Assembly (NCBI GenBank): GCA_017449065.1
Contig: JAFSKF010000038.1
Span: forward strand, 1 to 64,000
Direction: 5' to 3'
DNA length: 64,000 bases
Origin: Bacteroidales bacterium
Lineage (GTDB): Bacteria > Bacteroidota > Bacteroidia > Bacteroidales > UBA3663
Below are positions 6,109 to 31,425 of this stretch, in pieces. Below the pieces are notes generated by a model. The model ran no database searches. It was not told the DNA's origin and saw nothing but the letters and a program-made list of their open reading frames with translations. The position numbers and the translations under genes were made by a program. Numbering within the stretch: the stretch's first letter is position 1; the number at the start of each line of letters is the position of its first letter.

Positions 6109-6152
6109 CATCGCGCAATTTTTTTATAGGCATCGCGCAAATTTTTCATAGG
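6109..6152. repeat. 22-bp imperfect tandem duplication
   Basis: Two adjacent 22-bp copies beginning CATCGCGCAA and ending ATAGG (6109-6130, 6131-6152). It lies in the gene-free stretch 5976-6393, which otherwise holds only the glucokinase promoter. Confidence 0.55.
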
Positions 6153-6296
6153 CATAGAGATTAAGTGGACTGCTGAGGTCGTTCGTATTTTTCTAAAAAT
6201 GAGCAATCGCAATATTGAAAATAGAAAAATGTTGTGTTCAGAAGAAAAAAATCAGCAAAAAATAAGGCGGTTCTTGGCAGATTCGCCGGAATTGTG

Positions 6297-15322: not shown

Positions 15323-17833
15323 ATGAAAAAAGCATTATTATTATCGGTGCTGACATTGGGAGCGATGTTCGAAGCCTATGCCCAGTACGTGCCGGCATCG
15401 CAGGCCGACAGCGCCTGGCTGTTCACCTACGCCACCACCAAGAACAACGGCAAGAACGGACTTCATTTTGCATGGAGCACCGACCGCCAGTTGTGGCAGG
15501 AGATCGGCCCGGAGTGGGCACCCGTGAAGAGCGATTACGGTAATTGGGGGCCCCAGAAGCGAATGCTCGATCCTTGTGTGTCTTACAATGCCCGGAAGCA
15601 GCGTTGGGAGGCCATTTGGCGCGTGAACGAGCAGGAGAATGTCGTTGCCTATACCTACAGCGACAACCTCTACCTGTGGCATCCGCAGGACTACTATGCC
15701 TTGCCTGGCGAGAAGATCGGAACCGCACGTCTGCTCGATGAGTTCAACCATCGTGCTCCTGTGGCGTCGATGGAGAACACCCAGCTCCTTGACCTGCCTT
15801 TCAGCGGAGAGGTTCGCGGACAAGTGCATCGCGTAGCGTGGAGCGTGGTGAACGAGTTGCTGAACGCCTGGCAATTGCAGCAGGTGAAAGATCGCAGGAA
15901 TGCCGAACGCGCCATCGACGATTTGAAGGGCCGTTTTGCCAAACTCAGCAGTCAGGAAATCAATATCCGTGTGCAGAAAGAAGGACAGAAGCAGATTTCC
16001 GACAAGCTGATCGGTATTTTCTTCGAAGACATCAACTATGCAGCTGATGGCGGCTTGTATGCCGAACTGCTTCAGAACCGTGACTTCGAATATACTCACA
16101 AGGATAATCGCGACTGGAAGGCCGAAAGCTTCTGGAAGGCCGAGAAACTGGATTTCAGCATCGCCGTCGAGAAGCCGATTCACGAAAATAACAGCCACTA
16201 TGCCGTTCTGAAAGCATCCGATGCCAAAGGTTCGCTGACTAACGAAGGCTGGGAAGGCATCGTGCTGAAAAAGAACGCCAAATACGATTTCTCGCTCTTC
16301 GGACGTGTGCCGGAAGGTAAGAATACGAAGGTGAAAGTGCAGTTGGAGACCCCCAACGGCAAGCTGCTGGCACAAACCACGCTCAGTTTGCCCAAGGGAG
16401 AGAAGTGGAAGCAGGTGAAAGCCACGCTGAAGGCAAGTGCGGACGCTTCGGATGCACGTCTGGCAATCATCCCTCAAGGCGAAGGCACCTATCATATCGA
16501 CTTCGCAAGCCTCTTCCCGCAAGATACCTACAAGGGTCGCAAGAACGGTATGCGCAAAGATCTGGCTGAAGCCCTCGAAGCCCTGCATCCGCAGTTCGTC
16601 CGCTTCCCGGGCGGATGTGTGAGCCACGGACAGGGCATCGACAATATTTACCGATGGAAGAATACCATCGGTCCGTTGGAGGCCAGAAAGCCCGATTTCA
16701 ACATCTGGCACTATCACCAGTCGGTGGGCTTGGGCTACTACGAATACTTCCAGCTTTGCGAAGATCTTGGTGCGCGCCCGTTGCCCGTCTTGGCTGCCGG
16801 TGTGCCTTGCCAGAATTCGGCTGTGGGCGGATACGGCCAGCAAGGCGGCATTCCGCTTAGCCAGATGGATGCCTATATTCAGGATATTCTCGACCTGATT
16901 GAATGGGCAAACGGCGATCCTAAGACCAGCCAGTGGGCGAAGTTGCGAGCCGAAGCCGGACATCCCAAGCCGTTCAATCTGACCATGATCGGCATTGGCA
17001 ACGAAGACCTGATAGGAGAGACCTTCGAAATTCGCTACAAGATGATCTGCAAGGCTATTAAGGAGAAATATCCGGAGATGGAGATTGTCGGCACAGTAGG
17101 CCCTTGGTGCGAAGGATCCGACTACGAGTGGGGGTGGCGACTGGTTCGCGAAATGAAGTTAGAGTATGTCGATGAGCATTATTACAACAGCCCCGGCTGG
17201 TTCATCAACAATCAGGACTACTACGACCGCTATGCCCGCAAGGGAACGCAGGTCTATCTGGGCGAATATGCCAGCCACATCAACGGACGCGCCAACTGCA
17301 TCGAGACAGCCCTAAGCGAAGCCCTGTATCTGTGCTCCGTAGAGCGCAATGCCGACGTAGTGGCAATGACCTCCTATGCGCCGCTCTTCTCGAAGAAAGG
17401 ACACACACAGTGGACTCCCGATATGATTTATTTCACCAATACGCAGGTGGAACTATCGTCGGGCTATCAGGTGCAGAAACTCTTCGGACAGAATGCCGGC
17501 ACACAGTATCTGCCTTCGAAGGTCCGCTTGCAGCACCCCGATGCCAACGTACAGAAGCGCATCGGAAGCAGCGCCGTCATCGACCCTGCTACCAGCAATC
17601 TGATTGTGAAGGTGGTAAACTATCTGCCTGTCGCCAACAACTTCAAGGTGGAGGTTCCTGCGGGTTATGCCGAAGTTAAGGAAGCACAGGTGCTTACCGG
17701 TGCATTGGGCGATACCCGCGCCATGCCTGCCGCCATCGATGCCGTCTTTGCCGACAATCAGCTTTCGTTCGAGGCTCCGGCCTACAGTTTCGTCGTGGTT
17801 CGCCTGAAGCCGGTTGAGACAGCGAAGAAATAA
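15323..17833 (+). CDS. GH51 alpha-L-arabinofuranosidase with a partial GH43-like N-terminal domain
   Basis: The 836-residue secreted protein (signal peptide to about residue 20, AYA/Q) starts with about 110 residues resembling the first blades of a GH43 propeller (WLFTYATTK, HFAWSTDRQLW, MLDPCVSY). A helical linker (165-210) leads to a GH51 domain beginning FFEDINYAADGG. Glu561 in GIGNED is the predicted acid/base and Glu648 in YLGEYASH the nucleophile. It should remove terminal arabinofuranose from plant polysaccharides in the periplasm. The N-terminal part is too short to be a catalytic propeller and is probably a substrate-binding or structural relic. A related full GH43-like gene lies at 56196. 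It follows tadA by 46 bases with no clear promoter. Confidence 0.87.
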   Translation: MKKALLLSVLTLGAMFEAYAQYVPASQADSAWLFTYATTKNNGKNGLHFAWSTDRQLWQEIGPEWAPVKSDYGNWGPQKRMLDPCVSYNARKQRWEAIWRVNEQENVVAYTYSDNLYLWHPQDYYALPGEKIGTARLLDEFNHRAPVASMENTQLLDLPFSGEVRGQVHRVAWSVVNELLNAWQLQQVKDRRNAERAIDDLKGRFAKLSSQEINIRVQKEGQKQISDKLIGIFFEDINYAADGGLYAELLQNRDFEYTHKDNRDWKAESFWKAEKLDFSIAVEKPIHENNSHYAVLKASDAKGSLTNEGWEGIVLKKNAKYDFSLFGRVPEGKNTKVKVQLETPNGKLLAQTTLSLPKGEKWKQVKATLKASADASDARLAIIPQGEGTYHIDFASLFPQDTYKGRKNGMRKDLAEALEALHPQFVRFPGGCVSHGQGIDNIYRWKNTIGPLEARKPDFNIWHYHQSVGLGYYEYFQLCEDLGARPLPVLAAGVPCQNSAVGGYGQQGGIPLSQMDAYIQDILDLIEWANGDPKTSQWAKLRAEAGHPKPFNLTMIGIGNEDLIGETFEIRYKMICKAIKEKYPEMEIVGTVGPWCEGSDYEWGWRLVREMKLEYVDEHYYNSPGWFINNQDYYDRYARKGTQVYLGEYASHINGRANCIETALSEALYLCSVERNADVVAMTSYAPLFSKKGHTQWTPDMIYFTNTQVELSSGYQVQKLFGQNAGTQYLPSKVRLQHPDANVQKRIGSSAVIDPATSNLIVKVVNYLPVANNFKVEVPAGYAEVKEAQVLTGALGDTRAMPAAIDAVFADNQLSFEAPAYSFVVVRLKPVETAKK

Positions 17834-17835
17834 GA

Positions 17836-18021
17836 GCCTCTCAGCGCTGAGCGGTGCTACTTGGAGGGCAGGAAGATGCCTCTCAGCGCTGAGCGGTGCT
17901 ACTTGGAGGGCAGGAAGATGCCTCTCAGCGCTGAGCGGTGCTACTTTGAGGACAGGAAGGTGCCTCTCAGCGCTGAGAGGTGCTACTTTGAGGACAGGAA
18001 GGTGCCTCTCAGCGGTGAGCG
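17836..18021. repeat. 42-bp tandem array, about 4.4 units, each with CTCAGCGCTGAG
   Basis: The perfect 12-bp palindrome CTCAGCGCTGAG occurs at 17840, 17882, 17924 and 17966, and a one-mismatch copy at 18008, exactly 42 bp apart. Units are nearly identical, with a switch from TTGGAGGGCAGGAAGAT to TTTGAGGACAGGAAGGT after the second. The array starts two bases after the arabinofuranosidase stop and so lies in its 3' UTR. An ORF crosses it (14-residue repeats) but has no other support. Confidence 0.9.
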
Positions 18022-18034
18022 TACAAGAAAATTA

Positions 18035-18085
18035 GAACAGCCCTCTGAGCACGAAGCTCAGAGGGCTGTTCTGTTAAGTTGTTTT
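18035..18085. terminator. 16-bp hairpin terminator between two convergent genes
   Basis: GAACAGCCCTCTGAGC (18035-18050) pairs perfectly with 18056-18071 round an ACGAA loop, followed after a few bases by GTTTTTG. It shares the CTCTGAG/CTCAGAG core of the arrays on both sides. Confidence 0.8.
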
Positions 18086-18088
18086 TGT

Positions 18089-18198
18089 CCGCTGAGGACT
18101 CAGACGACCTCTTGTAAGCTTGCAGAAGCACCGCTGAGGTCTCAGAGGCACCCTTGTAAGCTTGCAGAAGCATCGCTGAGGTCTCAGCGGTACCCTTG
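18089..18198. repeat. second 42-bp array in opposite orientation, about 2.6 units
   Basis: CCGCTGAGGACTCAG (18089), CCGCTGAGGTCTCAG (18131) and TCGCTGAGGTCTCAG (18173) are 42 bp apart, separated by CTTGTAAGCTTGCAGAAGCA-type spacers. Read on the minus strand the unit (GCCTCTGAGACCTCAGCGGT...) resembles the first array's unit. It ends at the stop codon of the permease gene (18199), so each convergent gene has such an array in its 3' UTR. Confidence 0.85.
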
Positions 18199-19248
18199 TC
18201 AGTTGTTTTTCTTATAGCTCTTCACAGCCCATACAGCCATCAGGGTGGAGATACACACGAGGGCATAGACCTGGTGGGCGATGCTCTGGAAGGTGCCGCC
18301 ACGGACGAAGACGGTGCGGATGGCATCGATGAAGTAGTGCATGGGGTTGACGTAGGTGGTCAGATAGGCCCACGAGGGCATCGAGCGGGTGGGCGTGAAG
18401 AGGCCGCTGAGCAGCATGAGGCACACCACGAAGAACCACATGACGAGCATGGCCTGCTGCATGGTGTCGCTGTAGTTCGAGATGATAAGTCCGAACGACG
18501 AGAAGAACAGCGCCAGCAGGATGGCCAGCAAATAGATGAGGAGAAGCGGTCCCTGGCACGTGATGCCATAGACCAGCCACGAAAGGATGAGGCAGACCGT
18601 GAGCACCAGCAAGCCAATGAGCCAATAGGGAATCAGTTTGGCCAGAATGAACGACCACTTGGAGACCGGCGTGACGTTGATCTGTTCGATGGTGCCCTTC
18701 TCCTTTTCGCCCACAATGTTCAGGGCCGGCAGGAAACCGCAGAGCATCATCATCAGGATGCCCATCAGCGCGGGAATCATGAACACTTTGTAGCTCTGGC
18801 CTTTGTTATATAAGAATAAGGTGCTGACTTTCGATTGTATGGCAACGACTGAGGGCTGCACGTGGGCGGTGACTATCTGCGAGAGATACGACGAGCCTAT
18901 CGAGCCTTTAGTGCCGTTGACGGCATTGGCAGCAATGAGGTACTGACCGTCACGTATCTCGAGGATGATGTCGGCCTGCGACGTCTCGATGTCCTTGAGG
19001 GCTTCCTGATAGGTGGCCTTCTGACCATTAAAGATAAAATAGTTGGACTGCTCTATCTGGTGGACCAGCTGTTGGGACTCGGTGGTGCGGTCGGTATCGA
19101 CCACATCGACACGGATATTCGTCACCTCCTGATTCATCACCCACGGCATGACGCACATCACCATGATGGGGAATATGAAGATGATCTTCGGCATAAACGA
19201 GTTACGGCGAATCTGCAGGAACTCTTTCTGGAGCAAATATTTTATCAT
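18199..19248 (-). CDS. ABC-2 type exporter permease (YbhS/YbhR-like)
   Basis: The 349-residue inner-membrane subunit has one N-terminal membrane segment (about 22-40), a large periplasmic domain, and five C-terminal segments from about 165 on, with GEKEKGTIEQINVTPVS as the conserved coupling motif. It is the last gene of the five-gene exporter operon and pairs with the permease at 19292. The substrate is unknown; relatives export drugs or other small hydrophobic compounds. Confidence 0.88.
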   Translation of the reverse strand: MIKYLLQKEFLQIRRNSFMPKIIFIFPIMVMCVMPWVMNQEVTNIRVDVVDTDRTTESQQLVHQIEQSNYFIFNGQKATYQEALKDIETSQADIILEIRDGQYLIAANAVNGTKGSIGSSYLSQIVTAHVQPSVVAIQSKVSTLFLYNKGQSYKVFMIPALMGILMMMLCGFLPALNIVGEKEKGTIEQINVTPVSKWSFILAKLIPYWLIGLLVLTVCLILSWLVYGITCQGPLLLIYLLAILLALFFSSFGLIISNYSDTMQQAMLVMWFFVVCLMLLSGLFTPTRSMPSWAYLTTYVNPMHYFIDAIRTVFVRGGTFQSIAHQVYALVCISTLMAVWAVKSYKKNN

Positions 19249-25244: not shown

Positions 25245-25535
25245 TTCATGATGCCGATGTTGTGAAAAATTTTAACATTTCCGCCCACATCAGTTCGATG
25301 TAGGCTCCCCTGTTAACATTCCTTTACATATCGGACCGATGTAGCGTCGTTTGTTAAAAAGTGTTTCCACATCGATTCGATGTAGCGCCGATTGTTAACA
25401 GATGTTATCACATCGGTCCGATGTGGGCTCAGTTGGATAAATTTGAGGCCAAATCGGACCGATGTAGGGTTAGTTGGAAGAGTTTGGGACTAAATCGAGC
25501 CGATGTAGGCTCAGTTGGAAGAGATTGGAGCAAAA
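25245..25535. repeat. 41-bp tandem array of seven units with an ATCGGnCCGAT dyad
   Basis: CGATGT begins at 25255, 25296, 25337, 25378, 25419, 25460 and 25501, exactly 41 bp apart. Most units carry a dyad such as CACATCGGTCCGATGTG. Outside the dyad the units have drifted: early ones have TGTTAACA, later ones CAGTTGGAAGAG. The array fills the space between the convergent araC and DUF1643 genes. Confidence 0.9.
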
Positions 25536-31208: not shown

Positions 31209-31237
31209 ATAGATTTCAGTTATTTTTTATTCTTTTT

Positions 31238-31425
31238 CGTCAGCGAGAATGTACATCGTCCCGATATTTATTCTCTGTCGTTACGGAGAATGTACATGGC
31301 TCCGATATTTATTCTCTGTCGTTACGGAGAATGTACATGGTCCCGATATTTATTCTCTGTCGTTACGGAGAATGTATATCGCTCCGATATTTATTCTCTG
31401 TCCCGACGGAGAATGTTTTTCGGGG
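31238..31425. repeat. 41-bp tandem array of five units
   Basis: GAGAATGT begins at 31245, 31286, 31327, 31368 and 31409, exactly 41 bp apart. Units read GTTACGGAGAATGTACATGG followed by a CCGATATTTATTCTCTGTC-type half, so ATTCTC/GAGAAT half-sites face each other. It occupies the 5' region of the regulator operon (start 31208) and the 3' side of the DUF5686 gene. No TAnnTTTG promoter is visible between the array and the start. Confidence 0.9.

Follow-up and report, generated by a model that had tools for sequence, protein, structure and literature searches.

A convergent Bacteroidales spacer filled by 42-bp-phased palindromic arrays, and arrays of similar build across the genus

Two arrays and a terminator on a common register

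In the window (the whole 64,000-nucleotide stretch analyzed, contig 34 of a 3.15-Mb draft genome that is 86.8% complete), the 365-bp spacer between two convergent genes is wholly taken up by a tandem array, a terminator and a second tandem array, which raises the question of whether such an arrangement works in RNA, works in DNA or is merely tolerated between gene ends. The gene on the left (15323 to 17833, plus strand) is an open reading frame (ORF) of 836 aa with its TAA stop at 17831 to 17833; sequence resemblance names it a GH51-type alpha-L-arabinofuranosidase-like gene, and it has relatives in congeners by DNA match. The gene on the right (18199 to 19248, minus strand; ORF of 349 aa, stop codon at 18199 to 18201) is named in the same way as an ABC-2 type transporter permease gene; its relatives are MAGs of rumen Prevotella or Bacteroidaceae, the closest reaching 91% identity. 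Where we inspected these relatives, the gene adjoining the permease was not GH51, and none of 17 orthologous permease loci (one of which ends at a contig edge) carried this array downstream.

The array region starts 3 bases past the GH51 stop and reaches the permease stop codon. Array 1 (17836 to 18020, plus orientation) consists of about 4.4 units of 42 bp with the dyad CTCAGCGCTGAG, centered at 17845.5, 17887.5, 17929.5, 17971.5 and 18013.5; TRF delimits it at 17832 to 18021 (period 42, 4.5 copies, 95% match, score 317). With up to two mismatches allowed, CTCAGCGCTGAG has nine matches in the window against 3.1 expected, among them four exact matches and one with a single mismatch, and it is those five that are spaced 42 bp apart. 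Array 2 (18086 to 18198, minus orientation) holds 2.6 units of 42 bp related to those of array 1, with the dyad CTGAGGTCTCAG centered at 18097.5, 18139.5 and 18181.5 (TRF: 18089 to 18199, period 42, 2.6 copies, 90% match, score 164). Between them lies an intrinsic terminator (18034 to 18072) with a perfect 17-bp stem (18034 to 18050 paired with 18056 to 18072) and a 5-nt loop; it is canonical on the minus strand, where AATTTTCTTG follows the hairpin, and has a weaker T-rich tail on the plus strand.

The two arrays are on a common 42-bp register across the terminator: the distance from the last dyad of array 1 (18013.5) to the first of array 2 (18097.5) is 84.0 bp, an agreement with a chance of about 1 in 42. 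The hairpin center (18053) lies 2.5 bp from the vacant register slot at 18055.5, so that the terminator takes the slot of one unit, and its stem (CCTCTGAGC/GCTCAGAGG) is one compensated pair apart from the unit arms (CCTCTCAGC/GCTGAGAGG). Within each array the palindromes are in direct tandem order, and only the two halves of the locus are mutually inverted. Aligned with its reverse complement, the region matches at 69% over 17959 to 18152 (194 bp; E of about 1e-7), and the alignment of an array 1 unit with an array 2 unit reaches a z of about 5 against shuffles. A first, sequence-only reading of this DNA had described two related arrays that share a period and mirror each other across a terminator with the same core, a description that TRF and these alignments bear out. 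Its placement of the arrays in the 3' UTRs of both convergent genes also holds at this locus, where each array lies between a stop codon and the terminator.

We picture the locus as one 42-bp-phased array of dyad-symmetric units, interrupted by an intrinsic terminator. The founder palindrome was probably the terminator hairpin itself, or one ancestral to both hairpin and units, and tandem and inverted duplication at the site itself most likely extended the array outward on both sides. Since founder and units are palindromic, copies made in either orientation would remain in register, which would account for the mirror arrangement. An array-free copy of the terminator, 90 to 92% identical, stands between other convergent genes of the same genome (G000:C24:65466-65504).

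Folded as RNA, the two strands score z = -8.1 and -9.0 against shuffles, and what is predicted is long hairpins plus the terminator, not the row of small hairpins that had been proposed; such stable folding into long hairpins is expected for direct repeats of palindromes. The further suggestion of an sRNA sponge drew no evidence from an Rfam search, in which the best matches at the locus stayed below the gathering score; the His_leader match (37 bits against a gathering score of 49) spans repeats and terminator and was taken as a composition effect. A CRISPR array was likewise rejected, as all 42 bp repeat and unique spacers are absent.

Arrays of similar build in the genome and the genus

The sequence-only reading had also taken CTCAGCGCTGAG for a recurring unit, a view that confinement of the arrays to this spacer and their absence from, or variable phase in, close relatives would count against. 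As a sequence, the unit is indeed so confined: it occurs in the 3.15-Mb genome only in this spacer, and in none of 14 sister species of the genus. What does recur is the build, since the genome search prompted by that reading led to many unrelated-looking arrays of the same period and palindromic construction across the genus. The genome statistics that follow come from stretches amounting to about 0.47 Mb of the source genome and about 1.2 Mb of long congener stretches, with genes for context called by a simple hexamer caller rather than a standard annotator.

Two such arrays lie in the window itself. One (25287 to 25530) occupies a convergent spacer with 41-bp units carrying ACATCGnnCCGATGT palindromes, and has a second genome copy, 83% identical, at G000:C11:11814-12067 (stretch L147, 3841 to 4100). 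The other (31226 to 31416) lies in the spacer between two tandem minus-strand genes; each of its 41-bp units holds two dyads, ATTCTC..GAGAAT and ATCGnnnCGAT, about 20.5 bp, or half a period, apart. Elsewhere in the genome, 41-bp units of a family that we call Y (GGAGTTGCCGCCGACACAGCGGATTTCATTTCCTGCGCTCC) are dispersed over L054 3212-3348 and more than 20 further loci, with none in congeners; some copies end in an inverted half-unit plus a tail like that of the F2 arrays of sister species described below. The commonest array period in the source genome is 41, and in the 472-kb sample intergenic arrays with units above 30 bp have periods of 41, 42 or 82, bar one of 32.

Of 15 genomes of the genus, at least 8 have intergenic palindromic arrays of 41 to 42 bp and multiples, with differing unit families, and six species have dozens of array loci per genome. 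The same period with other sequences was seen in stretches of G001, G003, G004, G005, G006, G010 and G013; samples of 27 to 60 kb each from G002, G007, G009, G011, G012 and G014 held no such arrays, and in G008 a single array, of 44 bp, was found. In other Prevotella (1.2 Mb), arrays between genes usually have a period of 22, with long periods spread over various values. Tandem repeats of 22 bp also lie between genes of the source genome (window 6109 to 6155; L051 10722-10802; L053 19752-19794; L057 19575-19618; L066 776-847), several of these loci having CGCGCAAATTTTTCATAGGCAT-like units in common. Another Prevotella species carries 42- to 44-bp repeats built on CCCCTCC/GGAGGGG hairpins (L143 4485-4709, 9291-9558 and 12542-12627), and intergenic arrays of 18 and 27 bp made of 9-bp half-palindromes, such as TCTAGAAAA, occur in G010 (L148, L149, L155, L157, L158) and G001 (L161).

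In the six-species clade, arrays comprise about 9 to 12 units, each an imperfect palindrome of 26 to 30 bp plus a linker of about 14 bp. Family F2 is found at roughly 10 to 24 places per genome and F4 at dozens, loci being fewer than matches because the counts take in both strands and pieces. Arrays of F3 or F4 beyond the genus were absent from a 393-genome sample of the order, bar one weak 31-bp match, and in the G013 and G010 samples no F3 palindrome stood alone outside an array in the manner of an ordinary terminator. Some F2 arrays of sister species have leaders and tails in common, in a leader-array-tail plan. One F2 array in G013 is missing in G004 and G010, whose spacer is short, and comparison with the empty site gave no clear ends (terminal inverted repeats or target-site duplication). 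A 125- to 127-bp tandem repeat of G013 (L208 353-775; L219 5869-6168) has GACGTGCGCAAGC in common with an F2-array tail. In addition, the two flanks of an F4 array in G006 (L257) are separated by about 64 kb in G004, where an array accompanies each of them (L267 and L258, contig C110, at about 12 kb and 76 kb), as if the arrays were rearrangement breakpoints.

The window array is intergenic, falls within the 41- to 42-bp period and keeps a single dyad register, the three features of the class, and it is by period, palindromy and intergenic location only that we assign it there. Its unit compares with F2, Y and other class members at z = 3.4 to 3.9 over about 90 comparisons, which is suggestive or borderline, and speaking against membership are its lack of leader and tail, its lack of dispersal and its size of only 7 to 8 units. 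The lineage-wide 41- to 42-bp class to which we assign it takes the form of dispersed leader-array-tail elements in sister species.

Unit families turn over within a kept register

We called dyads without assuming a period in 55 arrays, which had been selected by lags near multiples of 42 and so are biased to that period: of 440 dyad-to-dyad distances, 349 are exactly 42.0 and 372 exact multiples of 42, and another 28 are 63 or 105. A sample chosen in this way informs on exactness, family mixing and ortholog comparison rather than on the mean. Neighboring units differ at a mean of 23% of positions, yet few distances are off by about 1 base; aligned flanks of the same elements show 0.08 to 0.23 gap events per substitution, lower in the better pairs. 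Single arrays can combine F3 and F4 units, alternating or mixed, on one register (L301, L303, L306 and L309). At a locus compared in four species, G005 has F4 units only, while G013, G010 and G003 have F3/F4 mixes in different slots, and the 42-bp register is kept in three of the species and shifted by one base in G003. Palindrome arms are less variable than linkers. Conservation showed no supported periodicity at 10.5 bp, F2 alone reaching p = 0.05. Across the class, these observations suggest that it is the spacing of the dyads, rather than their sequence, that is kept.

Array spacers (n = 23, one array per spacer, from stretches not chosen for arrays) were convergent in 10 cases, tandem in 11 and divergent in 2, against 55 convergent, 370 tandem and 124 divergent among 549 background spacers of 100 to 1200 bp. 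This convergent excess fits a function at gene ends and tolerance of insertions alike. Together with the register, the palindromy and the turnover of unit families within the register, it belongs to what these data establish.

Readings of the arrays and their known relatives

We give about an even chance to the reading that this is a DNA-level array under constraint on its spacing. Forty-two base pairs correspond to four turns of B-DNA, so helical phasing may be the reason for the period; dyads on the same face would then give a symmetric DNA-binding factor a regular platform. Alternatively, still at the level of DNA, the structure may be copied in register by recombination and replication. 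The protein-binding and nucleoid-organizing roles raised in the sequence-only reading stay among the candidates. A fuller version can be put forward only tentatively, and we would sooner bet against it: that in this rumen Prevotellaceae lineage selection acts on the 42-bp spacing of dozens to hundreds of intergenic arrays but leaves the dyad sequence replaceable. The arrays would then form a helically phased DNA scaffold of flexible sequence that could serve, for instance, a symmetric factor acting in the nucleoid or on topology, and the window array would be a young member built around a terminator.

Strict register could, however, also arise without selection, if the arrays expanded recently and underwent gene conversion, and a neutral or selfish minisatellite is the strongest competitor, plausible if somewhat short of probable. 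The arrays would then be a MITE-like expandable core or a local slippage product, tolerated in convergent spacers and owing their period to descent and copying. The leaders and tails shared within dispersed families, the presence and absence of an array between species at one locus, the species-specific families and the convergent excess all agree with it; less easily accommodated are a register that outlasts the change of unit family at one locus, the very few off-register steps despite 23% divergence and the lower variability of the arms. Minisatellite elements of such period are not new to the Bacteroidales: Porphyromonas gingivalis has MITE464/PgRS (41 nt) and BrickBuilt (23 nt), intergenic minisatellites in 10 to 20 copies per genome, the latter with leader, tail, long predicted stem-loops and 0 to 6% indels (PMC4596501). 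The intergenic tandem core of a minisatellite MITE is present in the window array too. The leader-array-tail plan of BrickBuilt is seen in the F2 arrays of sister species, whereas the window array lacks it and abuts both stops, and multi-copy dispersal applies to families Y, F2 and F4 but not to the single-locus window unit. Moreover, 464/PgRS and BrickBuilt are reported to have one sequence family per element type, in contrast to the many palindrome families per 42-bp register here. PINSR, a 188-bp intergenic repeat of Prevotella intermedia (PMC4755523), is comparable as a highly amplified, non-coding repeat without terminal inverted repeats in the Prevotella lineage, but its 188-bp unit is described as a dispersed repeat and not as 42-bp phased palindromes. 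We found no description of 42-bp phased palindrome arrays in the open-licence literature.

An RNA function, in which long 3'-terminal hairpins stabilize mRNAs, block 3' exonucleases or attenuate convergent read-through, is unlikely in our view. In its favor, both arrays here lie between stop codon and terminator and the strands fold far better than shuffles, although direct repeats of palindromes do so by construction. A recognizable terminator precedes the array on just 11 of 61 gene-to-array sides and is lacking on the other 50, so that many arrays may be transcribed; yet the G013 array discussed above sits beyond the terminator of its left gene, and 10 of the 52 arrays of the mismatch-test set with assigned spacer type are in divergent spacers. 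In transcript sense, G-U mismatches were not above A-C mismatches (164 versus 148 in 18 tandem-context arrays), and compensatory changes were not in excess of the shuffle expectation (below it in F2, 46 versus 133, and F4, 45 versus 108; close to it in F3, 61 versus 53). The two tests thus lend no support to selection on RNA or cruciforms, which nevertheless survives them because related units have a common history; with neither a G-U bias nor a compensatory excess, the palindromes agree better with a role in DNA than with rows of hairpins in RNA. Our confidences in the DNA-level, neutral and RNA readings overlap, since a spreading element may be put to use too.

Very improbable are REP/BIME-type repeats spread by a RAYT (Y1) transposase: the arrays are palindromic, intergenic and often convergent, and the source genome has one Y1_Tnp gene, but G004, G006, G010 and G013, with dozens of arrays each, gave no Y1_Tnp match, and the window unit is not dispersed. 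Enterobacterial REP sequences bind gyrase, IHF and Pol I (PMC2817692, PMC1525189), and the BIME of Escherichia coli may be the best functional analogy (PMC1525189), with regularly spaced palindromes at intergenic, often convergent sites as here. BIME/REP palindromes, however, alternate in orientation within a cluster, whereas here they stand in direct tandem at exactly 42 bp; the sequences here vary between loci, and no Y1 transposase was found in the richest species. By the features tested, the window array is a member of neither the minisatellite MITEs nor the BIMEs. Coding repeats of 14 codons are hardly credible: 42 is divisible by three and a 118-aa ORF covers both arrays, but this ORF reads through the terminator, the differences between units are non-synonymous in three cases out of four and most arrays of the source genome have a period of 41.

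Tandem repeats in bacterial spacers are usually seen as neutral or mobile debris, whereas here the spacing outlives the sequence. If selection keeps the spacing, a DNA-level organizing function would be directly testable by changing it; if there is no selection, the arrays would be an example of palindromes copying themselves in register. Either way, a common period rule may join them to the unexplained 41-nt and 22/23-nt minisatellites of another Bacteroidales genus.
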